A stretch of 64,000 nt of DNA from Cladocopium goreaui (taxonomy: Eukaryota > Sar > Dinophyceae > Suessiales > Symbiodiniaceae). The translations under genes were made by a program, and so were the position numbers. Where the stretch lies: NCBI GenBank assembly GCA_947184155.2, contig CAMXCT020000816.1, forward strand, positions 99,496 to 163,495. The letters are read 5' to 3'. Under the pieces are notes generated by a model that worked only from the letters and a program-made list of their open reading frames with translations, made no database searches and was not told the origin of the DNA. This document shows, one piece after another, positions 15,031 to 55,100 of the stretch (within the stretch, counting starts at the first letter, position 1; each line of letters opens with the position of its first letter).

Positions 15031-15594
15031 ATGTAGCCATGAAAAGAATCTGTGACCATTTGGTCAGTTGCCAAATGAGTTTCTCTTCACCATTGTTCAC
15101 CACTATTCACGTTTTTTTTTTCTTTTCCCCCACGCTCCTTTTTGCTGCGCGTCAGTGTTTCATGGCTTTGTATTCCAAATATATTTCCAATCAATTGGCT
15201 TATTGGCTTATTGTAATAGTTAACAATATCTATTTCATTCTTTCTATATCTTTCTATCCATTCTCCAGACCTACGAGTATGATCTGCCAACACAGTTTCC
15301 CATTTTTTCGACCACTGGGACCATCTTCCCAACTGGAGATGGTGCTGACAATCAGCTGTTGGCTCCCTGACCAAGTCGAGTTTCGCCCAGCATATTTCTG
15401 GGTGGTCTCTCCCCCATGTTTGGTGCTCCAAGCATCATTTTTTTAATCAATATTGACAATGTCTATCCATGTTTTAAATAAATTCTATCCAGTCTAATTA
15501 TCTATGTTTACATCTCTCTCTTTCTCTCATATCTATGTTTACATATGTTTACCCATTTTCTTCCCAATTTTTCATCCAACCCACAGTTTAGTCG

Positions 15595-15753
15595 CTACCC
15601 ACTGCGTCCATCCGCCGCCATCTGCGCCAAAGACACCAAGAGCTGATGCGCAATAGCGCTGAGAATCACCCGCTGGCGCCGCTTCTCCTCCGCCAAGACG
15701 CGCTGCAGTTGCTGCTTCAGGCGGAAACGCTGCACCAGCATGGCCAGCTGCTC
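15595..15753 (-). CDS. Kinase gene last exon (stop)
   Basis: [52 protein letters not shown] then TAG at 15597-15595. The end matches the position of the MAP3K-epsilon C-terminus, so I take the stop as real rather than as part of an intron. Confidence 0.85.
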   Translation of the reverse strand, partial: EQLAMLVQRFRLKQQLQRVLAEEKRRQRVILSAIAHQLLVSLAQMAADGRSG

Positions 15754-16078
15754 CTGGCACCCACGAATCTCTCTCGTGTCGTGGGTCAAAACAAGCCAGT
15801 TATGGGTCCCAAGTCATGGGGACTTATTGACTGGTCCCATTCATCGGGACAGTTGGGCGATGGGAATCACCATAGTCACCCTCCCCGAACTAGATGGTTT
15901 TGCATCCCGAGGCATGGGGGTTCATGCACGCCAAAAAACAAGGATATGTCTTGGAGAAAACACGCTTCAACCAACAGACCAAAAGGTTAATAGCTAATGA
16001 CCCATAATAATATATTATTATTATTGTTATTATAATTTAATATATATATATACATGTATATGTACACACGCACACACC

Positions 16079-16121
<43 letters not shown>

Positions 16122-19100
16122 TGTGAAACTCCCAAGTTGTCTTTCCATATTGGTCCCTTTTCTCTCGCCGTCCACCGCAGTGGAGGGAGGGTTCGAGGAG
16201 TCACAAGGCGCGGCAGAATAAAAGAGACCTAGGACAGGGATCCTTGGCGGAATCACAGGACTTCATTTGGCATCTCAAAGGGTTTGAGATTAACATTGGT
16301 AGCGGAGCCTCCATTTGCGGAGGTCTCCTTAGGAACACCCCACATTGGTCCCCTAATAAAAGAGGGTAATTAGGAAAGGCCTAAAATCCTCAGGGAATTC
16401 ACTTAAATTTTGTTGTTTGCACGTGTTTCTAACAACAGGGTTTGGACAAAAAAGGCACACTAGACCAGCTACTGAGCCATGGAGGGTGCGGGAACAGCTG
16501 GTGCCACGACCGATGAGCGCACCAGCAATCTATGGAGCATCCTGCCTTCGTTTGACCCTGCAGTGGATGATCCACGAGAATATGTGGATAAAGTGAAGTT
16601 TCTTCGGGCCATATGCCCGGTCAAAGACAAGGGCATGCTTGCCCCCCGTTTAGCCATGCTCATGAAAGGTACCGCATGGGCACAGATCAAGGGATCCGAT
16701 GCTGCTCTTCTTTCTGACCCTGAAAAGGGAGTAGATGTTCTCCTGGCGGCAGTGGCTACCTGGGAGGAAAACTCAGAGTTGCAGACCTACGACAAGTTTG
16801 AAAGAGCTCTATACAAGGTGATTCAACGAAATGATGAGACAACGTTGAGCTATGTCAATCGTTTGAACGTTGCTTTCACTGAGTTGGGCCAAGTTGATAT
16901 CGCTGACATGAGAGCCTTCATACTTTTGCGCCAGAGCGCACTGCAGGCCGAGGACAAGAAGAAGGTCATCACCCTTACGGGTGGGGAGCTCACTGCCAAG
17001 AAGGTGGATGGAGCTATGCGTTCCCTGTCAACAAAAGTACTGGGCGGGCAGACAGACCAGAAAAAGAAAACTTACCCAATCAACTTCGTGGATGAAGATC
17101 ACGAGGAGATCTACCATGCAGGTGATGATGGATGGGATGAAGAGACGATTTTGCAGTCTCTAGTAGAACAAGGTGATGAAGATGCTCAAACAGTGAGCGA
17201 TTTTGAAGATCAACTCATCGATGTGTGCCAAGAAAGCTCCGAACTTTCTCTCTGTTTCTCGGCTTATGCCGATGCCAGAGCCAGGATTCGCGACAAGCTT
17301 CGAGCCCGTGGCTTCTGGCCAGCCTCCAAAGGGTCAAAAGGCCGTGGTCGAAAAGGAAAAGGTTTCAAGGGAGGTGGCAAGAAAAAGAACCAGACCCTTG
17401 CAGACCGAATTGCCTCATCGGCATGCCGCATTTGCGGTGTCAAAGGTCACTGGAAGTGGGAGTGCCCTCGTAAGGGCGGAGCTGCTTCGTCAAGTCAGAA
17501 TGCCGATGTGAACCTCGCCTTGCAGGTGGCCAGTGGTGATTTCCATGAAGAACTTCAGTGGCAACTTCCATCCCAGGACAAGGAGAAGGGCAAGATCATC
17601 CGCTTGGAGGACATGGTCAAGACCTGGGATCAGGACTGCCTTGGGGTTCTCCCTCCATTTGAGTCTACCGTTGTTCAACAAACCGAACACGGGGTTAATG
17701 AGGAATTCATTTTTATGACGGAGTCAAAGAAATTTGAAGCACTGACCAATTATTTGAAAGTGGCTACCCTTGAAAGTCGTTTGTCCAGGGTGATGAAGGG
17801 GAAATTGTCCAGGAATAGCACTGTTTCTCCGACTTTTCCAGTTTTGAGTGCGGAAGCCAGCTGTCCAGGAATCATAGACACAGGAGCCAGTAAATCAATC
17901 ATTGGTCAGAAAAAGGTCAAGGGCTTGTTGCACAGTTTGCCAACTGCAGTTCAATCTCAAGTGCATTGGGGAAGTTCAAACACTGTTTTTCGTTTTGGGA
18001 ATAATGGAACGTTGCCCAGTGTTGGAGCTTTGTACATTCCTTTTGGTGTACGTTGGATGAGGCTTGAGGTGGTCAAAGGTGAAACACCATTTCTTCTCTC
18101 CAATGCATTTTTGAAAGCGACTGCAGCTGACGTCTGTTCTTCTTCGTGTGAACTGTTTTTCACTGAAAGTGGAATCCGAGTACCACTTCATGTAAACTCC
18201 AAAGGCTTGTATACAGTTGAACTTGCTGATGTCTTGGAAGCCGTTGGAAAATGCACGAATTCGGAGTGTGCCGACAATTGTGAAGTTGTTACTCATGTCA
18301 AAACAGTGGAAAACTTGATGAAGTCAATAGTGAAAACCAAAGTTGGAAGCAAAGCAGAAGCCGAACGACTTCTTGAAGCTGCAGTTCCCGTGGCTCAATC
18401 TCCCAAGAGCTCTACAGTGATTTGCGAGGGCAAAGTTCCAAAGAACGCTCTTTGTGATCATGGCTCACCGTGCGTGCCCACCGTGGATGAAGAGCGATGG
18501 TCATCTTCCTCTACCAGATCAGCCCTTGGAATTTCCCGAGGATCAGTCCCTGAAGATGACCGACCTGAGTTCTGTGCAGATCAAGAGGCCCCCAGGTGTG
18601 GACACCCTGCGCCAATGGGGACAACAAGTCTTTCCGGAGGGGAAGAAACAGGGCCTGACCTTTGCCCAAGTGTACCAAGAAGATGCTCGCTATCGGGCCC
18701 TGATGATGAACCACAGCCATCTTACCTCAGCTTGGGCACTGAGCTATCAAAACTACGTCAGAGCCAGGACCAAGGTGGAGTCGGGGCTGATGGCCAACAC
18801 AAGTTCCGGCAATCAGAAACCGGTGACCAGGGCACCAAAAGTATCGGAGGGCTCCGATTGGGAGTTGATGATCGACGAAGAGAACCAGGGCAAGAAGATG
18901 CCCTCGAAGAGAGCAGCCAGCTCTGCTACACCAACTATGATGACAGAAAAGGATCCGGAGAAAGAACAGGAGATCATGACGAAGATCGCCATTCTCCAGA
19001 GGGAACTGGCGATGGTGAAGGGCACGGAAGAAGCCTGAACCTACTCGAATGTGGTCCTGAGGAGGTGCTGTCTGAGAGTTCCGCAGATATCGTCGAGTCT

Positions 19101-22100
19101 CAACTGAAACAATCCACTCAGATGCTGAACGCTAAAACGATGTCCATTCAGCAGGAGTTAGATACTTTGGTTGTGCAACTCGAGAAAGACTTGAACGTCT
19201 TGTCAGCATCTGCTTGGGAGTTTCCGAAAAAGTTCGGCAAGTCTCCAAAACAGCCTGGGAGAAAATGTCAACTGGATGTTCTTGAAATCTATTGTGGAGA
19301 AAATTCCAGAATAACTGCCATGGCTCAGCAAATGGGTTTGAAGGCTAGAAGATTCACGAAGGCTGATGGAGATCTGCGCACAGCTGAAGGACAACGCGTT
19401 CTGTGGGAACTCCTGGAACGTGAATGTCCACGTGATGTTTGGATGGCTCCCGAATGCGGCCCATGGGGAAACTTCAGTCGACTGAATTTGTGCCGAAGTT
19501 CAACTACCTGTCAAAAGGTTTTGGATGACCGTGAAGAGCAAAGGTTGCACTTAAAATTGTGCGATGAAGTATATAACTATCAAGTTCTGAATGGGAACCA
19601 TTTTCACATGGAACAACCTCAGGGTTCTATTGCTTTTGATCAACCAGAAATGGAAAACGTAGCAAAGGGTACCCTCAAAAGTGTTTTTGACATGTGTGAA
19701 GTGGGGAAGCTGAAGGTTCCTCTGGGGAATAATTTTCTCAGAAAAAGAACGCAAGTCAGAACAACTTCACGTGAGCTCCACAACTGTTTGGACGCTCGGT
19801 ACTGCAATCAAAGGCACACTCATCAGCCGATTGAAGGCAAAATCAAGTATCTTGGTCGCTGGATCAATTTGTCGGAATATGCAGCTCGGTATTCAAATGG
19901 TTTTGCACGAAATGTGGTTTGGTATTTGTTGTGGAGTCGTGATTTTGGTGATTTGCCTGTGGAAATTGCCGAGCTGTGTATTGACGACTGTCAAAAATTC
20001 GGAGAGCATGCTGTCCTTGCCGCAGAGGTGAGTGCCCGTCGGAGAAGACTTTCCAAGGAGGAAGTCAAGGTTTCTTCTCCTGCTGTTCCATCCGAAGACG
20101 GGTCACGCAAGTTGTCTTGGGAGAAACGTTGGAAAGAAATTTTTAAGAGCATTGAACAGCGGGCCCCTCGGGCCGGAACTGTTGTTTTGGAACCTGCTGA
20201 GAAACTTTTCCAAGACATTAAGTCAACTCTCACCACTATCGATGTCAAGGCAGCTGAGGTATGTAGAGGTACTGATCGATTTCGTTTGCCAAAGACTCAA
20301 ATTTCAGAGTCGGAAATTCCACTGCGGCACACCATCATTTTGCACCGGCATACTGGAAAAGTAATGGAACTAGGCAAACCCGAAAGTTGGTTGGAGCTTC
20401 CCAAAACTCGAAGGACTTTGAAGTCAAAACCAGCCAAGTTGTGTGTGACGGTTTTTGGGGATGTTTGGGAATCCAGTTCCCGGTCTGCAGCTGCGGTGCC
20501 CAGTGAAAAACCTCCGACGGCGTCAATGGCTGGTTCACAAGTCACTTCTTCTTCAGGTTCCCGGAAAAGAGAAGTGTCTGACTCAGACATGGACGTGGAG
20601 AAACGGTTCAAGAAGGATGAGCCAAGTGTTTCCACTTTCACAGAGAAAGGTTTGGAGGGGAAGGAAGTTGGGGAGTATTCTGAAGGTTTTCCCCCGAAAA
20701 AGGTAGCTGTACATGGGCCCCATTTTCTCGGTTTGGAAAAGGATGAAAGAGAGTGGATTCGCAGGGTTCATCATCGTATGGGACACCCTGATCCAGTCCG
20801 TTTCTGCAAGTTCCTTAAGGACACCCATGCCGATCCGAAGATCGTAGCTGGCGCATTTGATTTCCAGTGTGATGCGTGTTGCGAAGACAGCAAGGGTTAC
20901 GCTTTGTCAAGACCAGCTGCCATCCATTCCAATTTGAATTTCAATGATGTGGTCGGACTAGATGTAGCCTACTGGAAAAATGATGTTGGAAAAGAGTTTG
21001 CTTTTCTTCATTTTCTGGATGAGGGAACTTTGTTTCATTTGGGGAGTCATTGTTTTGAGGATGCTGATTCACAGGTTCGATGTTTTGAGAATGTTTGGTT
21101 GTCATGGGCAGGACCCCCCAAAGAGGTATACCTAGATCCGGCCAAAGAATATACTGGAGATCGGTGGATAGCAAAGATGCAGGAAGAAGATATCAAACTG
21201 AAAATGTCGGCGACAGATTCGCATTGGCAATTGGGACGGGTGGAAGCACATGGTTCTGTTGTGAAAAGGATGTTGGACCGTATGAACTCTGAGAAGCCAA
21301 TTTTGGACAATGAGTGTTTTCAGGCTGCTTTGAGACAAGTCTTCAATGCCAAAAATGCGATGTCTCGTGTACAGGGATTCACACCCGAACAGGCTGTATT
21401 AGGTGTCGCTCGCCGTCTTCCAGCATCTGTTTGCTCCGACCGGGAAATTGCCAGCCATGCACTTGCTGAAAGCGAGTGCACGGAGGGCGAAAAATTTCGA
21501 GAGGCACTGCGCCTTCGAACCTCAGCCCGTCAGGCGTTTGTTGAGGCCGATAACTGCAGTAGTTTGCGTAGGGCATTGCTGCGTCGAAGTCGCCCCCTTA
21601 GAGACCCTTATGAAATTGGGGATTGGGTTTTGTACTGGAAGAGAAAGGGGGGTAACATGAGACGGGAAAGGGGACGTTGGCACGGACCTGCAAGGGTAGC
21701 CATGGTTGAAGGTCACAAAGTGGTTTGGGTTACTCATGCAAATAAATTAATTCGGGCAAGCCCGGAGCAATTGCGGCCAGCATCATTTCGGGAATGGAAG
21801 TCTGTCCAAGATTTGGATGAAAACAAGGTAACCCCGGCGGAATGGTTGAAGAAGGCAGGTTATCAGGACTTCTTTGATTTAGGGGATGACTTACCTGATC
21901 TCTCTGATGTGGTCGAGGAGGGTCCTTTGTGTGGAGACAATACTGAAAGTGACAGCCTTCCTGAACCAGAGCAGGCGCCCAGTGTTCACTCCGGTGATGT
22001 GGAAGCGGTACCCTCGTCTGAAACTGGGGGTCTACATGTCCCGGTACCGGAACCCTTAGAAGGAGAGCTTTCAGAGGGGGATGCATTGTTTGGGGATTGT

Positions 22101-25100
22101 ATTGATTGTCCTAGTGGTTTGGGGAATCAAGTCTGGGAGATTGACATTACCCCTGGTTCTGAATTTGGGAATTCCGGTAACCTTGAATGGGATGTGTTTT
22201 CAGATACAACCTGTACCTGGGATGAAGTTGCTCTTTTGGCCACGGAACAAAGAAAGAAAAGAGTAGAAGTCAAACTGAAGGATTTGGGGGAACATGATCA
22301 GAGATTGTTTGCAGCGGCAAAAGACAAAGAGATCCGTGCATGGCTTCACCACAAGACTGTCAGAAAGGTGAGTAAGGGTAGAATCCCTGAAAATGCCCTG
22401 ATGCGATGTCGATGGATCTTAAACTGGAAACCTGCTTCCGGAAATGAAAATCCAGGTGAACTTTCCAGCCAGGGCTTGAAAGCCAAAGCTCCTTTGGTCA
22501 TTATCGGTTTTGAGGACCCTGGTATTGATGTCGTGACAAACGATGCACCTACTTTGACAAAGGATGGTAGGATGACTGTTTTACAAAATGTGGCAAGTCA
22601 TGGCTGGGAACTGTTGTCATTCGACATTAGCACGGCATTCTTACATGGAAAAGGAGATGGACGCACCTTAGGAATCCATGCACCACCTGAACTCAAGGAA
22701 GCCCTTCAAATGTCTGGCACCGACCAGTGTGCATTGGACGGTGGAGCCTATGGTAGGATTGATGCTCCATATCTTTGGTTTTGTGAATTCAGGGATGAAT
22801 TGATTCGTCAAGGGTGCATGCAGTGTCCTTTGGATCCTTGCGTCTTCGGTCTGTACTCAGAGCTTCCAAGTGGCCAATTGAAGTGTCATGGCTGTTTGGG
22901 CATCCACGTAGATGATGGCATTGCTGGTGGAGATCATGTCTTTCACAATATGCTGAAAAGAGTGGAGGCCCGGTTCAAGTTTGGAGCTTTTGAGAGACGG
23001 GAATTTAAGTATACTGGGATAAACTTCAAGCAGTGGGATGATTTCAGCATCGAGTATGATCAGATTTCCTATGTGGAGAAGATTTCCCCTGTAACCATCG
23101 ACAAAGGTCGTCGATCCCAGTTGACAGCGTCCCTTAATGAGACCGAGAAAAGCTCACTGAGATTGTCGGCGCCCTCCAATACGCGGCCGTCCACACTCGG
23201 CCAGATTTGGCGGCAAAGGTGGGTGAGCTACAGTCAGCCATCAACCGAGCCACGATTTCCGATCTGGTCACTGCCAATAAGGTGCTTGCAGAAGCAAAAC
23301 AAAATCCTGTTTCTTTGATGGTTTTGCCTATTTGTCCTGGAAGTGTCACTTTTTGTGCTTTTTCTGATGCCTCTTTCATGTCCAACAAGCAACATAGTGC
23401 TCATCAGGGTACCCTTATTTTTGTGACAACACCGGAGTTGTTGGAAAACAAAAGATCAATTGTAGCACCAGTGGCTTGGACAAGCAAGCGTGTTCCACGG
23501 GTAGTCAGAAGTACCCTAGGTGCTGAGGCAGCTGCTCTCAGTAACACCGTTGACCGGCTCATGTGGCTGAGAATCCTCTGGGCTTGGACACAAAATCCAA
23601 AATGTGAGTGGACACATCCAGAGAAGCTGCTACCACAAGAAACACCTGCAGCTTTGGTTACAGATTGTAAATCAGCCTATGACCTTCTGACACGAACTGC
23701 ACTACCACAGTGTGCTGAACACCGTACGACAATAGAGTGTTTGCTGATTCGGGAGAGATTGCGAGAAAACTGCAAGGTGAGATGGGTAGCGTCACAAGCC
23801 ATGTTGGCGGACTGCCTTACGAAAACCATGGACTCACAGGTGCTTCGACAGTGTTTGAGGTCGGGAAAGTATGTTTTGAGAGATGAGGGGCATGTTTTGA
23901 GGGATCGTTTGGATAGGCGCCAGCGTTTAGAATGGGTCAAGCAACAAGCATCTGGAGAAGCTCCGGAAAATTCAAGTTCCTGTAACATCGCTTCAGCGGA
24001 TACTATATCTTCGTCAATGCACGACTTTTGGAAATGGGGTACCAATGGTGAGCTGATTCGTGTGCATCGAAAACCCAGAGAGAACAAATTCACGCCTATT
24101 GGGGTTGAGTGTCCAGTTGACATTCGTGATCTGAGTTCCCGTAGAGTCACTTGTTTGGGGAAGAATAGGACTGAAACTGATTTCTGGGTTGGCACACATG
24201 CTTATCAACGTACCGGTTTTCTTTGGACGGGATCCACGTCTTTCTTCTTAAGAGACCAGTATGGAGAAAAGTGAAAGAATTTTTGGTCAAAAAGAGGGTG
24301 TGTGAAACTCCCAAGTTGTCTTTCCATATTGGTCCCTTTTCTCTCGCCGTCCACCGCAGTGGAGGGAGGGTTCGAGGAGTCACAAGGCGCGGCAGAATAA
24401 AAGAGACCTAGGACAGGGATCCTTGGCGGAATCACAGGACTTCATTTGGCATCTCAAAGGGTTTGAGATTAACAACATATACATATACATATACATTATA
24501 CATATACAAATATATATAATATAATATGATATAGTATAATATAATATAATAGAATAGAATATAGTATAGTATAGTATATTTCATATAATATAATATAGTA
24601 CAATATAATATGTAATATGTAATATGTAATATGTAAAATATAATATATAATATAATATATATAATATATATATATATATATTATATTATATATTATATAT
24701 TATATATAATATATAATATATATTATATAATATATAATATATATTATATAATATATAATAATATATATATATATATATTTGCAATTAACTTGAATAGCTG
24801 CAGCCTATCCAGATCCAAAGTAGTTGTTCCAGCAGCCAAGACAGGCTAAAACACCTGGACTGCTGGAAATACTGCCATTCTGAAACACGTCCATTGGTGA
24901 ATCAAACAATCTGCTTCCCGCACCTCGTTGGTTGATTTTCCTTGAAATCCCAGCTGTACACTGTAGACCCAGCTTCATCATCCCATTAAATCCCATTGAA
25001 TCCACCGAAAAATTCGCGGTTTCTGGGTTCATGTTCAACCCCAATTTTTTATTTAAATCTTTAGTTTCCATTGATTTAAAGTTTGAAGCACCAGTCTTCC

Positions 25101-28100
25101 AAAGATGTCTCAGATTTTCCCAGTTCCATGGCTTCAGTCCCCTTGTGGAAAGCCCGCTTCCGCACCTTGCTGAGGTGTTGGCACAGCTGCATCAGCAGCC
25201 GCAGCAAGGACTGCCGCGCCCGCACAGCGTCGTCCGTGTCGGGCTGGGCGCTGATCAAGCGCCGCACCGGCTCGCCCACCTGGTGATGCTAAAATCCTGG
25301 GAGTTTTCCAATGGTTCCGTTCCCCGTGACGTGGTAAAAATATCTTAAAATAACAACCATATGTACCCTCCGGTAATTGAAGAGTTTGCTATGAAAACTT
25401 GCCCATCATTGGATGATTTACACTGATTTAGCTATGAAAACTGGCGGATTTTCCGTTTCTATGTTAGTTGACGGGAGGGTAAGCAACACTATTGGGGATA
25501 ATAGATGATGACTGTACGCTGGAGATAACGGAGATGCACACAACAATGTTCTGTAATATCAAGAGGGGATAACAATAAGCCATCCCTAGTAGTAATAAAG
25601 GGAGACGAGCATGTTATAATCCAGTTGTACATGGAATATCTCCAGCGGCCCAGGTATATGTGGATGATATATGGGCACCCCCAAAAATCATGAGTAATCA
25701 TGGTTGATCATCATTTTCCCTAATGTGGTAAAGCCAATACCATCAAACACCGGTAACCAGCCATTTGGGTTCAGCTCATCAGCTGGGTTTCTAACTCACT
25801 TACAATGCAGTTCAATATCTTGCCATCATCATCATCATCATCATCATCAAACCATCACAAGGTCAATTTAATATAATTCAATCAGAACACATGGTTAACA
25901 AAACCAAATCTGAATAAAATCTAACTCATCAAAGTTTCTAAGAATTCCAAGCCATTTCTTTAAAGTCCTTAAACACACACCATAAAACCACCAGAAATCG
26001 CAGTTTCTCCAAGGAGCTCGGGCTGCAACTTGAGCCAAGTCGTCCGGAGAGAAGGCGGTGTTCAAAGAGTTGAACTGGTTTTTGCCTGGGAAAAACACAT
26101 ATGAATTTCTATAGAACACATGGGAGTTTCATGGGATTTTCAATAGGGAAAAACACATATGTCAAGCAATTGGAAGAATAAATGGATTACTTGCCTTCCC
26201 CCTGGGGGATATCACCCAGAAACCTATGGCGTTAAAGGTGCGATTTTATATGGACATCTGCAAAGATGCTGCTTGAAGCAGTAACCTTTGGGGATGCATC
26301 AAGCACCATTTATGATATTTTTTGCATATATATTTCGGCCACTTCAGCAACGACTATTTATATCTATTTATAGGATTTAAAGCCAGGACGACTGTGACAA
26401 TTTCTGTAGGATTTCAATTCACTGCTGCCAGGTGTTGCTATAGCGTTTCAAGCCGGAAAAAATATCGTCCCAGGGATAGACAATGATAGAAATGTGATAG
26501 GCACAGAGGCAGTTCCAAACCTGTGACAATCTGCAACATAGCGACATTGAACGCCTGGAAAACGTAAGGTTAATGTAGTCTATAAAATCCATCTCTGTGG
26601 TGCTACACATGCGTATGTCTGAATGAAAAGGAGTTCCCAATTCCAATGGTTTATCCTATATAATTTTAAATCTTTTCTACTTTAAGTTTGGCATCTGGGG
26701 GCATATCTATATTGAGACAAACCCAAATCATGTTGCTGGTTTAATAATTGTTTAATATTATTTATATCCACAAAAGCCGTAAAGGCATGAAGCTCTAGGT
26801 TGTATACGCCACCCTTTTTGTCGTACGCAACTAATTCTCCACGATGCTTGGTCTTCCCATGATATCCGGTGATGTCCCCACAGCCTGTTTGGTTTAATCA
26901 ACCCCACTACTAAATGCATATGTATATGATATGCACATGTATGTGTAGAAATGGTTGAATTCATCTCAATTTTTGGAGTTAAATCAATGCTTCCCACTTT
27001 CATCCCCACACCTTTGTTGGTTTAATCCCTATTGTATCCCCATAAATCTCGTGGCATCGCCAGTTATATGCCTGGATCACCACTTATATTTCTCTCTCTA
27101 TCATATTGGTATATATTGGTTAAGGGCATTTTGTCAGATGTCAAACAAAATCAAACAACTCAAACAACACAATCATCACACTTTTCTGGTGGATAAATAT
27201 ATATGATAAATAGCTCCTTTTATCGATATTGTGTTGATGTCAATGATCTTTTGAGGTCTTTTGGTGGTTTTACCATGTTTTCCCACTGACTCCCAGTGAC
27301 TCGACTCTGGATCGTTGCCATCGGTCTCCAAGCGCCGCAAGAGCTCCCCAAGGAACTCGTCGCTGTTGGCCAGCGCCGCGTTGGTTTCCTGGGCGCAAAG
27401 CAGTCAAGCTACCTGTAGGAACTCAGTAACCCCTGAAAACATAGAATAACTAAATCCTTATTGAAATAGTGAGGAATTACTCATCTATCTGTTTGATTCT
27501 TTTTTGGGGGATTATATACCACACACTAGACAAGAATGGATCATTATATGATCCGGCAGGAACTGAATCCTGAAACATGCAGATTAGATACGAAACAAAG
27601 AAATTAACGATGCATCCTACGACAAATGCAGCAGAACTAATCGTAAATGACCAACGGTAATTCCAGATGTCAAATAAATTGTTTGAATAACGGCATGGTG
27701 GTTCTTGGGTTAGCCACGTCCCATTGCAGAAAATTGACAAAACAGAAATTGAACTGGCAGGTACGCTGGGTTGATCAGACCCAGTATCCCATGATTGTGG
27801 TAGCTTCGTTGAGTGCGATCCCACAATCATGCCGCACTCCCCTGCGTTAGTTAGAAAGGGAGAGGACGGAAGGAAGAAAAAGAGAGAAGTTTTACATCTG
27901 TTTAGATGTTACACACACACACACACACCCGGCCAGAGCCGGGTCAACCCTGAAAGGCAAGAGGAAGAAAAAAGCGGACACACGACGGGCAAACGGCCAA
28001 AAACAGCGCAGCGGGGGGAGGGGAACAAACGGACCTCCGGAACCAACCTACACGGCGAAACGGACCTGACCAAAACAGCGCACACACCTAAACCCCACGA

Positions 28101-31100
28101 CACATTACGGAGAGGCACGCGGGGAAAATTAGGGACCAAATGGGGGACTAGTTGGTGACAGACACGGAAACCAAAACAATTAGTTAAACAACAGGATTCA
28201 GTTCCTAAACCTAAAGGTCGTGCGATTGTTCCCTGCACCGGGACCGTGGTCAAGTCTTGCCCCAATTGGCATAAAACAGCTTCCAAAGTCCAGCGAATTA
28301 GGTGCACAACATGTTTCACCTCACCAGACAACCATCAAAAGAAAAAGACCACGCCTGAAAGTCGTGAGCCTGCCTGGTACTTGTGTCATGACATGATGCA
28401 ATGTAGCTGCAAAAGTTGCTGCAGTGGCAAAAAAGGAGTTTCTGGTTGTTCCGAACGATCTCACGCTGAGAGAGAAGCAAATCACTGGGGTCCCTGGGAC
28501 GTCCGGAGCCGCGGGAATTCTCGAAAAAGGTGCAAAACCGAAAGGCTGACTGTTGCACATTACTTAAACGAATTACCAAGTTAAAATGTGTGAATTCAGA
28601 ATTCCGGTCAGTCGACATTCACCCTAAACAGGGTTGCCTCAATTGGCCCTATGGCACCATGTCGGAGTCACCATAGGAATCACACTAGACAAGAATGGAT
28701 CATTATATGATCCGGCAGGAACTGAATCCTGAAACATGCAGATTAGATACGAAACAAAGAAATTAACGATGCATCCTACGACAGATGCAGCAGAACTAAT
28801 CGTAAATGACCAACGGTAATTCCAGATGTCAAATAAACTGTTTGAATAACGGCATGGTGGTTCTTGGGTTAGCCACGTCCCATTGCAGAAAATTAACAAA
28901 ACAGAAATTGAACTGGCAGGTACGCTGGGTTGATCAGACCCAGTATCCCATGATTGTGGTAGCTTCGTTGAGTGCGGTCCCACAATCATGCCGCACTCCC
29001 CTGCGTTAGTTAGAAAGGGAGAGGACGGAAGGAAGAAAAAGAGAGAAGTTTTACATCTGTTTAGATGTTACACACACGCACACACCCGGCCAGAGCCGGG
29101 TCAACCCTGAAAGGCAAGAGGAAGAAAAAAGCGGACACACGACGGGCAGACGGCCAAAAACAGCGCAGGGGGGGGAGGGGAACAGACGGACCTCCGGAAC
29201 CAACCTACACGGCGAAACGGACCTGACCAAAACAGCGCACACACCTAAACCCCACGACACATTACGGAGAGGCACGCGGGGAAAATTAGGGACCAAATGG
29301 GGGACTAGTTGGTGACAGACACGGAAACCAAAACAATTAGTTAAACAACAGGATTCAGTTCCTAAACCTAAAGGTCGTGCGATTGTTCCCTGCACCGGGA
29401 CCGTGGTCAAGTCTTGCCCCAATTGGCATAAAACAGCTTCCAAAGTCCAGCGAATTAGGTGCACAACATGTTTCACCCCACCAGACAACCATCAAAAGAA
29501 AAAAGACCACGCCTGAAAGTCGTGAGCCTGCCTGGTACTTGTGTCATGACATGATGCAATGTAGCTGCAAAAGTTGCTGCAGTGGCAAAAAAGGAGTTTC
29601 TGGTTGTTCCGAACGATCTCACGCTGAGAGAGAAGCAAATCACTGGGGTCCCTGGGACGTCCGGAGCCGCGGGAATTCTCGAAAAAGGTGCAAAACCGAA
29701 AGGCTGACTGTTGCACATTACTTAAACGAATTACCAAGTTAAAATGTGTGAATTCAGAATTCCGGTCAGTCGACATTCACCCTAAACAGGGTTGCCTCAA
29801 TTGGCCCTATGGCACCATGTCGGAGTCACCATAGGAATCACACTAGACAAGAATGGATCATTATATGATCCGGCAGGAACTGAATCCTGAAACATGCAGA
29901 TTAGATACGAAACAAAGAAATTAACGATGCATCCTACGACAGATGCAGCAGAACTAATCGTAAATGACCAACGGTAATTCCAGATGTCAAATAAATTGTT
30001 TGAATAACGGCATGGTGGTTCTTGGGTTAGCCACGTCCCATTGCAGAAAATTGACAAAACAGAAATTGAACTGGCAGGTACGCTGGGTTGATCAAACCCA
30101 GTATCCCATGATTGTGGTAGCTTCGTTGAGTGCGGTCCCACAATCATGCCGCACTCCCCTGCGTTAGTTAGAAAGGGAGAGGACGGAAGGAAGAAAAAGA
30201 GAGAAGTTTTACATCTGTTTAGATGTTACACACACAACGAAAATACTGAGATACAGTTACACACAAACATAGACATAGAGTTGTATAGGCATAGAATGAT
30301 ATAAATATTGCTCTTGTGGTTGTCTCCCAGAACTAGTTTTAAGGGATAATATGGGCTCTAAACGCCATTGTTTCCAGCAAAGTTTCCCTTACAGCCTTAC
30401 ATGAACCCAGTGATTCTCTGATCGTGTAGCGGTTGTACCAAGCCAAAACTGCCAAAGAAACCCATTGGGAAACATCGATCCCCAAACAGGTCATATGGAG
30501 TCAACGTAAAGCAACGAACCAAACCGCCTGTGATGCTATTAGAATAAGGTGAATAAGGGAATATAACGGAAACACATGTTGCCGGAAGAAGCAATTGGTG
30601 GTGGTATACTAGGCAACAGCGGGCAATTCCACCAACCGACATGGCAATGTAGATCAGCATAGATCACAGTGTACTGCAGCAATTGGGAGGTGAACCAACG
30701 GTGTGGGAAACTGACCTAGTGTGACTGACGGTGCCCGAAAATGCAGAATGATGCAACTAGAATGGTCCCCCCAAGCCACGCGCCGAACAACCGCGCCTAT
30801 GTATGACTTTGACTTACCATCGTCCTAGAACATGCAAAGACCCAAAAATGATGGGAAACAAGGCGCGTCCCCTGTGACGACGGCAACTCTTCAACTGTCT
30901 TGGAGTGCCTAGAAACAAATCAGACAGTTTGGCCTTTCGTCTTAAAGTTCAATCCTTTCAAACTAACAGTTAAACCCTTGCACAAATGACATTTTTCAAA
31001 CATGTTTAGATCATTTTTTAATGTCTGAGACAGACTGTTGCCTCAACGCCACCACCACGCTATCCAATATAATCCAACATATAAATTCCTGCAACTGTGT

Positions 31101-34100: not shown

Positions 34101-37100
34101 AAAACGAACAAAACCCAATACATCAACACAACAAGAACATGGTTTACAATAACAAACTCAACAGTAAACTTGTTGGTTCAGTACCTTCTTTGATGGACTA
34201 TCAGTGACTATGTAGTGTGGCCATATTCTAAGTGCATTTACTGCCCATAAGCGCACAGTTATACAGGCAAAAGCAGCAAGTGCAAAACCGGTTGGTGCTG
34301 TACCATGCGTGTTTTGCTGCAGTACCAAAAACAACTGTAAACCATGAGGTACCGTACTGAAATTGATCGGCGATCATGAACTCAACAGTTGCATTTTGTT
34401 TATGTTTTGTTGGTATTGTACGCGGCTTGTCTTGCAGTAACAAACTCAACTATATATAAACTTACCACATCCGAAGTCTCTAGGATGAAGGTTTTTGAAA
34501 ATATTTTTTTTTTATGATTTTGATACGTTTCAGATATGATTTGTTGTTATGATTTGTTTATGGCTTGGTTTTGCTGTTATGATTTTGATATGGTTTCAAT
34601 TATGATTTTGATATGGTTTCAGTTATGATTCTTGATGTGGGTCAAACTTGTGATTTGAAGCCAACCCATCGGAACAATATCCAAAATATTGCAAAATCGT
34701 ATCAAAACCATATCAAAATCGTATCAAAACCGTATCAAAATCGTATCAAAAGCGTATCAAAATCGTATCAAAATCATATCAAAACCACAAAAACCTTCGA
34801 CAAATTGACCAAAAACCTGTCCCTGGGCTGTTTCTGTTTCTTTTTTTGAAGCCAACTCACTGGAACCATATCAAAATCATATCAAAATCGTATCAAAATC
34901 GTATCAAAACCATATCAAAATCATACCAAAACCCTAAAAACCATTGAAAATTCGACCAAAAACATGTCCCTGGGCTGTTTCTGTTTCTTTTTTTGAAGCC
35001 AACTCACTGGAACCATATAAAAACCGGATCAAAATCATACCAAAACCGTATCAAAATCGTATCAAAAGCGTATCAAAATCGTATCAAAATCGCATCAAAA
35101 CCATATCAAAATCATACCAAAACCATAAAAATCCTCGAAACATCGACCAAAAACCTATCCTTGCGCTGTTTCTGTTTCTTTTTTGAAGCCAACTCGCTGG
35201 AACCATATCAAAACCGTATCAAAATCATATCAAAATCGTATCAAAATCGTATCAAAATCGTATCAAAACCATATCAAAATCATATCGAAATCATAACCCC
35301 AAATTCAAAGCATATCAAATTCATATCGTCAAATCGTATCCAAAACCATATTAAAATCGTAAAAAAAATATTTCCTGAATTCAGCATCCTAGAGGGATTC
35401 CGGTGTTGTAAATATAAACTGTTCAGTTCTGTATCTCTCTTGCTGGACAAAGTGACTCTGGCAGTTGTGTGCATATTCTAAGTGCATTTACTGCACAGAA
35501 ACGCACACTTTTACACGAAAACAGCTGCCAAACGGTTGGTACTCTACCGTGCGTGTTTTGCACTACCAAATGCAAGAACTGTAAACCATGCGGTGCTCTG
35601 CTGAAATTGTTGTGCAAACATGAACTCAACTGTTTCATGATTTGGTACTGTACAGTGCTTGTTTTGCAACAAAGAACTCAACTATAAACTGTCCGGTTCT
35701 GTATCTTATTTGATGGAATACGCGACTCTGGCAGTTGTGGCCATATTCTAACTGCATTCACTGTCCAGAAATGCACAGTTTTACACAAGCAAAAATAACA
35801 AATGCCAACCGGTTGGTACTGTACCATGCATGTGTTGCAGCCCCAAATGCAACAACAGTAAACCATGTGGTGATGTACTGAGATTGTTTGCGATCATGAC
35901 TCAACATTTGTAAACTTTGTAGTACTGTATCTTGCTTGTTTTGCAGTAACTAATTCAACTGTAAACTGTTCGGTTATGTACCTTTCTTGATGGACTATCA
36001 GTGACAATGTGGTTGTGACTATATTCTCAATGCATTCATTGCCCATAAATGCACAATTTTACACAACAAAAACAACAACTGCCAACCAGCTATTACTGTA
36101 CCATGAGTGTGTTTCGCAGAACGAATTGCAACAACTGCAGGCCTATGTGGTGATGTACTGAGATTGTTTTGAGACAGCTGCATTTGTTTTGCAATTTACC
36201 TTTGTTTTGAAGGAATTAACGAACCCAACTGTATGTTTCTGTTCTTTGTCTTGGTTGATTTTCAAAGTGACTATGTTAGTTGTGATCATATTCTAAGTGC
36301 ATTTGCTGCCCATAAATTAAATGCACAGTTATACAGGCAAACGGCAACTGCAAACGGGTTGGTAATGTACCATGCGGCGACCATACGTGTTTTGCAGTGC
36401 CAAATGCAAAAAATGTAAACCATGCGGTGTTGTACTGAGGTAGTTTTGCAATTATTAACTCAGCAGTTGCAATTTGTTGGGAACTGTACCTTGCTTGCTT
36501 TGCAGTAACAAATTCGACTGTAAACTGTTTGGTTATGCACCTTCCTTGATGGACCAAGCGACTCTGGCAACTCTGACAATATTCTAAGTGCATTCACTGC
36601 CCATAAATGCACAGCTTTACACAAGCAAAAACACAACTGCCAACCAGCTGATACTGTACCATGAGTGTGTTTTGCAGAACGAAATGCAGCAACTGCAAGC
36701 CTACGTGGTACTGTACTGAAATTGTTTTGCAATCATGAACTCAGCAGTTGCAAACTTTTTGGCACTGTACCTTGATTGTTTTGTGCATTCACTACCCATA
36801 CATGGACAGGTTTACACAAGCAAAAACAACAACTGCCAACCAGCTGGTACTGTACCATGCGTGTTTTGCAGTACCAGGTGCAAGAACTGTAAAGCATATG
36901 GTGCTCGGATGAAATTGTGTTGCAATTATGAACTCAACAGCTGCAAACTGTTTGACACTGTACCTTGCTTGCTTCGCAGTAAGGAACTCAACCGCAAACT
37001 GTTCGGTTATGTGCCTTCCTTGACCTTGACCATATTCCAAGTGCATTCGCTGCCTATAAATGCACAATTTTACACAAGCAAAAACAACAACTGCCAACCA

Positions 37101-49100: not shown

Positions 49101-52100
49101 CCATCCTTGAGTGAAACGGTCCTGAATCTCTGCACGATTCGGAGCGACAACAGCAGAATGATAGTTGGTGCCATGGTCTATGAAGTGGTAAAAATTGTAT
49201 TCTCGACCATCTTTGTGGGTCCACTTCACTCCATCTAAAGATATCTTGTCTCCAAATTCTAAGGCTTCCTTCAGGGTTGCCGGTCGCTGCAGTTTGGGCT
49301 TTTGTGTCATCTGACACACGGAACACTTCAGATCCAGAACTCCCTGAGACAGTTCAGTGCTGTAACCCCTCTGTTTAAGTACCTGACTTAATTTTTGGGG
49401 GTCTGGATGGCCTAGGTTCTTATGTAGCCTTAATGCTATCTTCTTATTTTCGGGTGACATGGTTAAGAACCGGGGACCATGGTTGGAACTGTTCAGATCG
49501 ACTTGGCTTGGCTCGCAACTCTCGGATGCTGTTTCTTGGGATTCTAATCTGGCTGGACTTGGCATCGGATGCATTGGTTCAGGCATTGCAGCATCTACGG
49601 ATGACCCATCCAAGGTCGCAGATTGGCTCGGTCCAGCTGGTTCCACTTCCTGAATTACTGGCTTGGCAGAGCTTGCTACTTCAGCATTGGGATTGCAGGC
49701 AAAAACTGTTATATTTAGGTAGCTTGGATGCGATCTCCTCCACTGCTGCCTAAATGACAAGTCTTCCCATTCCTCCCATTGATCTTCAACCAGTACATTT
49801 CGGGTGTTTCTCTGCATGATTACCGCACGGCGGTACGGGGCTTCTCCTCGCATGAGATCTTTTGGTGGTACTAACGTTCTTTCAGTCCCCTTACATGCAA
49901 TTATTCTTTGTACTTGTTTATCCCCAAACTTTCTTGCAACATGGATTTTACTTGAGGGTCATTGATCTCTTTGCGTCCAACCTTCGGCATGATCTCAAGT
50001 ACCCTGTTGCAAACTTGTTCACACAACACTTTTGGGGTATCATCACTTTGGGTCTTTCCAGAAAGTCTCCTACGTTTGGACAGCAACATTTCTGGGTTGA
50101 TCAAGACACTTTTGATGCTACCCTCTTTCAGTTTTGCTCGTTTGGCACTTTGGACACCGGCAGAAACGGATCTTCTCTTGGCTCCTGAGATTGCAAACGA
50201 AGGTTCATGCTCGGCAACATGCAGTGGTGCTTCCTTAATCATCTTGACTTTGGTAAGCACTTGGGCCAACGTTCGGGCAAACTTTCGGGTGTAATTCTCA
50301 GAAAATTCAGTTCTTCTCATGCGGTGACCTTTGAACATTGTTTCTCCCTCAAGTGTTTGGTGTTGATGAAGGTGGTTACACTTACGACCGTGAAGTTGGC
50401 TGTATAATTGATAGGACGTGGTAAGGATTTCCATTCCCTTCTTGTACAAAAGTTGGTTGACAGGGTCACGCATGCCTCCTACTCTGCACATGTCGAATTG
50501 GGCAAGGTATGTGTTTTCCATTACTTCACGCAACATCGGAGACCTGGTCATGAGTGATCGAGCAGGTTGCTCCCAGTGCATGTGTCTGCCATTCTGTCTC
50601 TGGAAACGGAAAAGCACAATGCCCAATGCCAGTTGGTACATATGTTGCTGTCGGAGAGCTTGGATTGTCTTGAACCCTGCCTCAGTCTGCGCGGCATTCA
50701 TTGCGCTCCAGGCACACCAAGGACTACATGTAGGGCTATACCAGAGACTTCGAGGTTGCCCCTCAATTAACTTGGTAAAAAGAACGGCTCGGCCGGATTC
50801 AGTTGCAAGGTCACCCTCTTGAAAACCATGCCTAACCCCTTTATACCCCAAGTTATTGACTTGCTTGGTGAGCTCACTCTGAGGTCCACAAAAGACTTCC
50901 AAGACTTGAATTGGTGTGCCTTTCTGGGAACATGATTGTGAAATTGACTTCAATTCGCTGGTAAACTGTTGAACAAGTTTATGGAATTTGTAGTGTAAGT
51001 GATTTGGTGTGTTTGTACTGAAATGGGCTTCTGCAGTTGGGTTATTTTCAAACCCGGCATCAATGTCACCAGCCTGGCACAACATCCGAAGAGCATGATT
51101 CACTTCCCCTGACGGAGATGTCCTAAGATCTCGCTGATGGCACCTTCCATGTTCAGTACTCGAGCTTGGAGTGCCTCGATCTTCTCGTTGGTCTGGTCCT
51201 GTTGCAGTGCTGTGTAGTCCATGACATCCCGCGGGTTGCTGGGATCCACAATCTCCTCGATCACCTCCACAGGCACTTGATGTGCCGGCATGGCCTTGCT
51301 CTTGGGCATGCATTTGGATCGAGGCAACATCACCCCTTGCAGATCTTCGGGATTCTTCAGAGGCACCATGCCATGGCTCCCCTCGTACTGATCCAACACC
51401 TTTTCCTGATAAGCCAGTACTTTCAGGTGCTCGGGCTTGGTGCTGCTGGCGTGAGTCTTGGCGAACCATTTCATCCATGACTTCTCCTGATCCCACATCT
51501 CTGCAAATGTTTTCCCGACGTGAGTGCGACCAAAGGTGATACGATGTTGGCTCATGGTTATCACAGTTATTTACCTTTGCAACAAGGTGGAGAAACTCGG
51601 TTGATGGTGGCTTGGGCCGGGAGATCTCTGTACATTCGAAACTACACTCACTGCCCTGGCTTCGGCTGGTCATGTGAACATGTCCCTGTGTACCTGGGCC
51701 TGTTGGTGTTGAAAGTGACTTCAAACTGTTACCTTGACTTTCACTGAGGCTTGGCTGACACGTTTCAGCTTGCTGGTTTTCGCTGGAAAAATCACTGCTC
51801 ATGAAAGTTTCGGCCATTATTGCATCACGAGGTCCTTGCAAATCCTTCTGGGCACGAAGCAAATCTATCAGATCAAGCATGTAGAGTCCTCTGGGACTCA
51901 GCTTAAGTTTGACAACCTGGTTCAACAAAGGACTGGACAACGTGTGATGCTCGCTGTTCAAACTGGCTTTGAGAGTCCTCAGGAGTGTGTTGGACAGCAG
52001 CAGCGGTGTTTCGCCAGGCACGATTGCAATCTTGAGACCCAGACCTACAGATTTTAAGGGGATAACTAAGGCATGTTGGCTATCCAAGGTACCTTGATTT

Positions 52101-55100
52101 CCGAATCTGAAGGTGATGTCACATGATGTCCTGAACACCTGCTGTCTCATCTCAACTGGAAGGCCCTCAAGTAAGGCAGGTAGCAATTTGCTACCCATCA
52201 CTGACTTCGACGCACCTGTGTCAAGTATGCCACAAGTGCCATACGTGGAAAAATATGCTACTGCTGGCTGCTCTCTCACGGATGCCACAAAACGGCTCTC
52301 AGGTTGCTCTGTGATTCGTTCATTCCTGGGCAGGCTTTCATTCGGGTTTTGATTATCTTCCCCTTTACCCCGTTTACCCAACTTACGGAGTCTATCCCGA
52401 ATTTCCTCCATGGATGAAACAACAACATGAATTTCTTGCCAACTGGGAACATCTAGGGTTTCCTCATGCACCATCGGAAGCTGCATGAACTCCATTGGAA
52501 GCGCATCGGACTCTTCCATGGACTGGGACACTGCTGAAACGGTCATGGCTGCTGATGTATTCGTGGAACCAGTTGATGCATTCGAACGTGTCCGGTCGGG
52601 ACACTCCGCACGCCAATGACCCTTCCTACCACACAATCGACAATGGCTTTCAAGGATCCTCTGTTGAAGACTTTTCTTGGAACCCTTGTTGAGATGCTTC
52701 CCTTTGCCCTTTGGTGCGGACGGTTTGCCTGAACCTTTGCCTTGACCTACTGGCCAAAATCCTCTATGCTTGAAACGGTCGGAGAGTCTTCTCCTGGCAT
52801 CTGCGTATGCGTTGTATGTGGCAGCAAGGTCTCCTTGCAGCACATCTGCGGCCATCGATTCATAGTCGGCAATCAAGGCTGCATCTTCATCATCATCTTG
52901 CAGTAACTGACTTACAAACTCATCCTCGGTATATTCATCAGCTACGTATGCAGACCCATCATGTTGAAAGTCATCTTGATCTTCAGCTAGCATCACTTGG
53001 GATTCATAAATCTTGCCCTTGGAGGCCTTTTGACCAATCATCTCATTGAAAAATGAAGTACCCAGCATGCGAACAGATTGTGTGACCTTCTCCATGTTCA
53101 AAGCTCCACTTGACGATGATTCACTCTCGACAATGACACGTTTCTTATCCTCTGTGCTCAAACGAGACCCTCTGAGGACTATGTACGATTGAATTTCTTC
53201 CAACTGCACCTTCTTGGCTAGAAGTTCAGACCAAACAACGTCACAACGGGCTAGGAAAGAATCGTTGGATTCATCTTGTTTCTGAAGGCAACGGAAAAGT
53301 GCTCTCTCCACAATGTCGTACTTTTTCTCCAAATTGACTTTTCCCCACTGGCCGTCAAGGAGCTGGACCAGTAGTTGCACTCCTTTCTTGTCATTTGTCA
53401 TCAACTGAGATTTGTTCAGTTGAAGTTTCTGAAAAGCAGTTCCACTCGTGTTCAAGATGAGGCGAGTGATCAACTCATTGATCTTTGCTGCAGGCCAAAT
53501 CTCACTAAGCAGTTCTACCTTTTGCGTATACTGTTCTAAGTCATCCTTTGACGGATCGAATGTTGGCACCAGTGTGGCCATGTGATTCGATGAAGCAGTG
53601 TTCCCATCGGTCGAAGCTGCTGTTGCAGTTTCCTCAGACATTCAGAAAAACCACCAGATGTTATCAAAGGTCCCCTGGAGCTTTATTGGGTAGCTCCGCT
53701 ACCAGTGTGAATCGCTCCACACTGGTAGAAATTCCCCTTCACCACCTCCAAAACGCTCGAGATCTTTTTCACAAGCAGCCAAGATGGTAAATGTTGCTAG
53801 GCTTCCCAAGCAGGAGAACCAAAGGCACTGATGCCACCGATAAATGCTGTCCTCAGCAAACCAGAAAGGATTGGCCTCAATCCTATGGCTTCAAGCGCTT
53901 CCTCAGCCCTCCCACCACAAGCTGCCAGTCAGCCAAAGCGGCCGAGGATTTCCACGTCTGGAGTTGGACCCTCATGGAACATGTATGAAAGGCTGTGCAC
54001 ATGTGACAAGAAAGCAAGAACATGACTGGGATCATTTGTTCATTCACAATATACATATAAATATATACGTATATATATTATCCACGTATCGCTTCTATCA
54101 AGATCTTGTCTGGCTGATGGTTTCAAACCCCTGAAACGGCATTACTACTTGGCAATGGGGATCATCATCTCATTTCTATGGTCGAACATAAACAAATGGT
54201 TGAAACGACCAACCGTATTCCTTGTCATATCATCCCAAACCCAAATATGGTTGATCATCATTCCCAAATGCAAAGGTGTTTTCAGGGTTGCTGCCAACAC
54301 CCCAAATACTATCGGCTTCGATTTTACTTTGACCTTAAAAAACACTGTAGTCACTAACCAATCAAACATCGCAATGGGTTGGAGCAACTCTTTGTTACGG
54401 ATTCATCATGATCTGGTTGGTGGTTTCAACTCTGAAAAATACGAAAGTCAATGATAAACAATTATCCCATATTTATATTAATTGAAAATAAAACATGATT
54501 GAAACCACCAACCAGATCTAAATGTGGATTAACCATGATTGACATCAGGGATTGTCCATTGCTATGTTTACCTATAATGATCCCAAAAGCCATTGGTTTC
54601 TCTTCTCGTTTTGTTTATTTTTTCCCGCAAAAGTCCGCCTGGCGCCAGCAGCTTGATGAGGTCCTGACAGACCTTCACCAGCTCACTGGGCTCTTCAAAG
54701 GGACGAATCCGGGCCAACAGGTTCTTCACCTGCGGGGAAGCCCATGGGGGATGGGAAAGCCCTCAAAATATAGAGATTTCACCGGTGAAAATGGGGATTT
54801 TCACCAAAAAATTGGGATTTTACCATCGCACACTACGATTCAATTGGATTGAATAGCCTCAAATATAGCAGAAAACTCTGCATCCTTTCCCTTTTGGACA
54901 CTTGCCCTTTTTACATTTTGGTATACCATTGGCCATCCTTTGCCTTGCTTCTCCACTGGGGTTGGCCCCGGCCCCTCTATTGACCAACTAAACAATGGGA
55001 TAAGGACATCTACTGCTGGTTGCTGGAGAAGTTTCCTGCCCCGAGTCTGGAAGTTGAAACTAAGACATAATCTCACATGCACTGATGATATGAAAAGGCA

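Follow-up and report, generated by a model that had tools for sequence, protein, structure and literature searches.

A probable overlapping gene in the +1 frame of gag-pol in copia-type retrotransposons of the dinoflagellate Cladocopium goreaui

Viruses offer many familiar examples of overlapping genes, whereas the usual description of a copia element is that of a single gag-pol open reading frame (ORF). Among long terminal repeat (LTR) retrotransposons, the Ty3/gypsy element Cer1 of C. elegans encodes the accessory protein CERV, part of which (exon 4), according to the accessible part of its description, is read in another frame of the main polyprotein region (PMC10309623). The present analysis concerns a window of 64,000 nucleotides (nt) from the dinoflagellate Cladocopium goreaui (assembly GCA_947184155.2, contig CAMXCT020000816.1, positions 99,496 to 163,495 of the forward strand; all coordinates below count from the first letter of this window), in which two copia-type elements, termed element 1 and element 2, carry an ORF in the +1 frame relative to gag-pol (frame 0). 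This ORF very probably represents a genuine overlapping gene, coding for a separate protein of ~190–220 residues in the +1 frame of the gag-pol of many copia-type elements and possessing its own AUG and stop.

In element 1, the +1-frame gene (18460..19038, plus strand; 192 codons, conserved from ATG to stop) was found as an earlier note on the window had claimed, with the ATG at 18460 and the stop ending at 19038. It is nested in the main gag-pol ORF (frame 0; 16479..23318, plus strand; 2,279 codons), which stays open across the overlap, and lies between the upstream protease (PR) region (17829..18308, plus strand; motif IIDTGASKS recognized by eye) and a downstream methyltransferase-like region (19263..19961, plus strand), for the name of which a Pfam search revealed no supporting family. 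A GTG is located at 18454, and the +1 frame is open for 205 codons from stop to stop. The ORF reported for the same place and relative frame of element 2 was likewise detected (51100..51564, minus strand; 154 codons from a GTG, without the conserved start in the same frame), inside the gag-PR-methyltransferase-like ORF (frame 0; 49901..53641, minus strand). The N-terminal part present in the public relatives P0071–P0073 is missing from this copy. The earlier note further held that two elements would not keep such an ORF by chance. The window pair by itself is thin evidence for this, because the two +1 proteins are only 12–17 % identical in whole-protein alignments. The length of the ORF by itself is within chance, since synonymous-codon shuffling of the main ORF (2000 shuffles per element) produced an equally long or longer +1 ORF in 198/2000 cases for element 1 and in 541/2000 for element 2. 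The case is made by the relatives in the genome, across which conservation, substitution phase and stop avoidance, not ORF length, are beyond chance.

Relatives were sought in the 1.17-Gb host genome. The +1 protein of element 1 retrieved at least 130 matches (150 of 250 candidates scored; no internal stop in 127 of the 130), and that of element 2 at least 150 matches (150 of 617 candidates scored), 142 of the 150 without internal stop. Frames of more than 500 codons hold 5 of the former and 2 of the latter; two of these seven (L019, L047), the loci of which were read, are broken-frame copies. Altogether 40 loci were read next to the two window elements. Frame 0 is stop-free across the +1 ORF in 38 of these 42 elements and both frames are open in 37, PR keeps the phase of frame 0 in 39, as does the first methyltransferase-like piece in 40, and the third frame contains 3–20 stops in the elements with intact frames.

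Public proteins homologous to the +1 protein numbered 7 with a single-sequence query and 37, at E up to 0.01, with an alignment query. Furthermore, 38 public frame-0 relatives were obtained, some of which may be of the same or closely related species; none of the 38 carries the module in its own frame. When, as an indirect test, these were read degenerately in the +1 frame (through the genetic-code ambiguity of the protein sequences, the DNA itself not being seen), 30/38 matched the +1 profile with scores of 34–98, the best score among 12 shuffles each being 24.1. The eight non-matching relatives cover at most 42 % of the query, but some of the matching ones cover equally little. Two viral contig scans yielded no relatives.

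The relatives, the collection and alignment of which the earlier note had proposed, have the +1 frame open, and their +1 proteins could be aligned (39 elements), revealing a common start, the core RPPGVxTLRQWGxxxxPEGKxxGxTFxxVYxxDxxY and the C-terminal helix KIAILQREL. Across 29 elements, the +1 protein has a mean pairwise identity of 0.356, compared with 0.232 for the frame-0 reading of the overlap and 0.55 for the methyltransferase-like region. Distances in the +1 protein and in the methyltransferase-like region correlate (Mantel r 0.81, 29 elements, 0/5000 permutations), which is what joint inheritance of the two would produce.

Of the two frames, it is +1 that is subject to amino-acid selection. 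Comparison of 15 element pairs shows that differences within the overlap are distributed over the frame-0 codon positions as 878/500/403 (of 3006 each), frame-0 codon position 1 being position 3 of the +1 codon, and in the flanks of the overlap differences peak at the third positions of frame 0. In bins of 30 nt, the +1 pattern does not extend beyond the ATG (first bin weak) on one side and the +1 stop on the other; the frame-0 pattern wanes ~60–90 nt ahead of the ATG and recovers over ~200 nt past the +1 stop, and short stretches on either side of the +1 ORF display no clear frame in the substitution pattern. The pair formed by element 1 and L010 differs at 18/5/3 sites by frame-0 position (of 192 each). 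For a distant pair of the element 2 type (element 2 and L050), the counts are 89/58/42 (of 148 each) within the overlap and, downstream of it, 54/39/75 (of 135 each). In 8 close pairs (299 classified changes), the nonsynonymous/synonymous ratio, with an expectation that weights transitions 4 to 1, is 0.21 for the +1 frame, and the corresponding measure for frame 0 is 2.44. With this phase and ratio, the purifying selection on the +1 frame for which the earlier note had suggested looking was found. An open frame arising by chance, i.e. a long +1 frame produced by compositional bias, agrees with the shuffled ORF lengths given above; it is contradicted by the phase test, and the change of substitution phase together with the 37 public homologues and the scored genome matches leaves it a negligible probability, so that it was rejected.

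Frame 0 behaves differently within the overlap. Among +1-synonymous changes, those replacing a frame-0 amino acid reach an observed/expected value of 2.4; those silent in frame 0, of which there are only 8, reach 3.4. Synonymous shuffling of the +1 codons predicts 265.7 frame-0 stops across 39 elements, 1 of which was observed, and frame 0 is open in 38 of the 39 where 0.05 are expected. No clear amino-acid constraint is evident for frame 0 in the overlap, only the absence of stops. On account of this stop avoidance, frame 0 appears to be translated through the overlap, its amino acids hardly mattering, and would be crossed by Gag-Pol ribosomes to yield a linker whose sequence is almost free to vary. 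The dual coding is asymmetric, both frames being kept and only the +1 frame being constrained in its amino acids, because frame 0 shows no clear constraint of that kind. The suspicion raised earlier, that the overlap may explain the odd linker, is borne out insofar as frame 0 overlaps a selected gene, and can be refined: the linker is the passive partner, probably the overprinted one.

The start of the +1 ORF is conserved as well. Its ATG is kept in 36 of the 39 aligned elements (absent from element 2, L044 and L045), and 23 non-redundant elements chosen among the ATG-bearing ones have C at –1 in 21 cases, G at +4 in 18 and both in 16, a combination found at only 6.25 % of 416 upstream ATGs. 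The +1 frame could alternatively be entered by a programmed +1 ribosomal frameshift near 18450, yielding a Gag-PR-module product that ends at the +1 stop and sets the ratio of Gag to Pol. The +1 frame indeed reaches slightly upstream of the ATG (13 codons in element 1, 1–76 in the 23 elements), and the eukprot gene model P0009 fuses protease and module. Such a frameshift is nevertheless unlikely, because in 9 of the 23 elements the ATG is preceded by a +1 stop at a distance of 1–7 codons; moreover, the ATG and its context are conserved, in contrast to the preceding 60 nt, which are among the most variable, and the +1 codon pattern begins only past the ATG.

The conserved core of the +1 protein is of the ExoX-like_C type (18634..18705, plus strand; ~residues 59–82, GKxxGxTFxxVYxxDxxY), as judged from alignments and from PF20600 matches of relatives. 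Of 29 aligned +1 proteins, 22 matched PF20600 with E values of up to 5; the strongest match (L040; 7.1e-08, 32.2 bits) exceeds the curated cut-off of 26.5, and L028 (21.8 bits) and L018 (12.1 bits) stay under it. The ExoX C-terminal-type module proposed in the earlier note therefore stands for the relatives, but both window copies are below detection: neither the +1 protein of element 1 (P0001) nor the ORF of element 2 matched PF20600, nor did five public proteins of the element 2 type (P0069, P0071–P0073, P0077). On the sequences at hand, P0001 and the element 2-type proteins are placed in this family through the alignment alone. The C-terminal helix (18955..19032, plus strand; residues 166–191, KIAILQREL) is supported by alignment and by a mean predicted local distance difference test value (pLDDT) of 78–92 for the block of residues 161–190. 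Structure models reach a mean pLDDT of ~75–88 in the module and <50 in the linker, and the predicted layout of the +1 protein comprises a disordered N-terminus, the ExoX-like_C module with a long helix, a disordered linker and the C-terminal helix. A PDB sequence search returned nothing meaningful (best E 0.067), and PHROGs gave weak matches only (best 0.0062, unknown function). Structure matches in a viral library (giant-virus and other proteins) were weak (best E 0.037) and were not used.

In the host genome, PF20600 yielded at least 49 matches above the cut-off (150 of 393 candidates scored), 25 of them in frames no longer than 403 codons and 24 in frames of 823–3059 codons. Two of the short-frame matches lie in overprint loci that were read, L037 and L040. 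The sole locus read of the 24 long-frame ones, L049 (G000:C2946:418500-421300), carries an in-frame ExoX-like_C module that precedes a protease-like motif, FLDSGCNQTC. In this polyprotein the module is situated between a zinc-ribbon-like part (by eye) and the protease-like DSG motif. Two compensating frameshift mutations could conceivably have displaced a once in-frame module, the shifted stretch now drifting; broken-frame single copies exist (L019, L026, L047), and L049, another element, has an in-frame module. Against this stand the purifying selection on the +1 frame in many pairs, the conserved ATG, the avoided frame-0 stops and the lack of an in-frame module in the 38 public frame-0 relatives, and the module of L049 is located elsewhere, upstream of PR. 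Contradicted on these counts, this explanation was rejected as extremely improbable. For the overlapping gene, the order of events probably was that the gag-pol linker was overprinted on the domain gene and not vice versa, given that the module is a member of an established domain family, occurs in frame upstream of PR in L049, and is faced by an unconstrained frame 0. Most likely, the gag-pol frame would have been extended across a pre-existing domain gene, making the linker the younger of the two.

Besides the unexceptional ORF length, several observations weigh against a separate gene. All DNA compared is from one genome, and the loci were picked by their match to the +1 protein, so that openness of the +1 frame follows in part from that choice, which does not apply to the openness of frame 0 or to the substitution phase. 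One frame-0 stop occurs in L010 and one stop in the +1 frame of L037; L019, L026 and L047 are broken or odd copies, the module sharing one frame with a flank, and L018 and L045 carry PR in another phase. The other long-frame matches (3 of at least 130, 2 of at least 150) lie outside the loci read. The window copies escape PF20600, and comparison of the models by Foldseek and VIA-align disclosed no convincing solved fold. As to initiation, 32–64 ATGs separate the gag ATG from the +1 ATG (17 loci counted), the 60 nt preceding the +1 AUG are, as stated, among the most variable, and a search beside the +1 AUG revealed neither a conserved splice acceptor nor a conserved frameshift motif.

Plain leaky scanning cannot explain initiation, because of these 32–64 upstream ATGs. 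Dinoflagellates trans-splice a leader onto their mRNAs, and initiation at the internal AUG of a shorter mRNA, generated via splicing or spliced-leader trans-splicing, would be the somewhat favoured route. An excess of YAG is present at –150 to –60 of the AUG, which may merely reflect frame-0 codons. With regard to function, the claim of the earlier note that gag-pol is overlapped by an accessory protein is supported by the open +1 frame, the aligned proteins and the selection acting on the +1 frame. By analogy with the in-frame module, which would act in cis, the +1 protein may tentatively be viewed as a nucleic-acid-handling partner of Gag acting in trans. Alternatively, the gene could be real and its product a regulator (for instance of RNA export or copy number, like CERV or p22) rather than a partner of Gag or nucleic acids. 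Precedents in other LTR elements, as far as the available portions of their descriptions extend (PMC10309623, PMC4599808), speak for this role, and the predicted disordered linker and C-terminal helix would fit it, but the same module resides in a polyprotein upstream of the protease in L049, and a regulator is the slightly less likely possibility. For the overlapping gene as a whole, the broader picture of an ancient, fully nested and independently initiated second gene that is standard in a large copia radiation, with the usual direction of overprinting reversed and the module supplied in cis or in trans depending on the family, is somewhat probable.

Element 1 is bounded by a 5' LTR (16122..16295, plus strand; 174 nt) and a 3' LTR (24301..24474, plus strand), which are identical, and was classed as a Ty1/copia LTR retrotransposon from its LTR pair, gag zinc knuckle, PR and an integrase ahead of RVT_2. 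The RVT_2 reverse transcriptase is above the Pfam cut-off (6.3e-09); the zinc knuckles (best 0.0016) and rve (0.094) are under their cut-offs, yet the order is as expected. The C-terminal pol part (23100–24274) is off the frame of the main ORF, the copy being broken before the RNase H part. Likewise, the main reading of element 2 (46124–53641) is split into pieces in differing frames. The methyltransferase-like region, EIYCGENS ... PECGPWG, is present in element 1 (19263–19961) and element 2, and presumably resembles DNA methyltransferase (DNMT) motifs. An Rfam search of 15500–25000 gave 0 matches at gathering scores. Elsewhere in the window, a head-to-tail repeat of ~1158 nt with at least 3 copies, ~99 % alike in the stretches compared, occupies 27522–30000. 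Further long tandem arrays with 193- and 277-nt units follow at 35415–38995, a region that also harbours minus-strand ORFs ~1 kb apart, two of 169 codons and one of 211.

With a selected second gene inside gag-pol, a protein goes unannotated in these abundant elements, and the strange sequence of the linker has a simple cause, namely the overlap with that gene. It also provides a large natural set for studying one stretch of DNA under opposite constraints, amino-acid selection in one frame and mere absence of stops in the other, and poses a testable question about the expression of an internal gene, the host group being known for trans-splicing.

In the open-access literature, none of the matches listed describes an overlapping gene for copia elements or for elements of dinoflagellates, judged by titles and the beginnings of abstracts. 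An extra ORF kept across copies is shared with the additional ORFs of plant LTR retrotransposons, in the accessible text on which the word "overlap" is absent (PMC7264820). Retroelements with extra domains are likewise represented in dinoflagellates by the DNMT-bearing retrotransposons of Symbiodinium; unlike the elements studied here, these are long interspersed nuclear elements (LINE) and DIRS, Copia is given as being without any DNMT domain, and no such overlap is described in the part of that report available (PMC5890265). Regarding protein family, 22 of 29 aligned +1 proteins resemble ExoX-like_C (PF20600) proteins, from which the present ones differ in that no exonuclease domain was found in them, in being encoded by an overlapping gene of a retroelement and in their extra C-terminal helix. 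A second protein of a Ty1/copia element is known in p22 of Ty1, which, according to the portion of the source available, arises from an alternative transcript (PMC4599808). Cer1 CERV is similar in being an accessory protein of an LTR retrotransposon that uses an alternative frame over the polyprotein; as far as the accessible text describes it, CERV is spliced from five exons, shares polyprotein-frame exons and belongs to another superfamily, whereas in the copia-type elements of C. goreaui the whole ORF, with its own AUG, is nested within gag-pol (PMC10309623).
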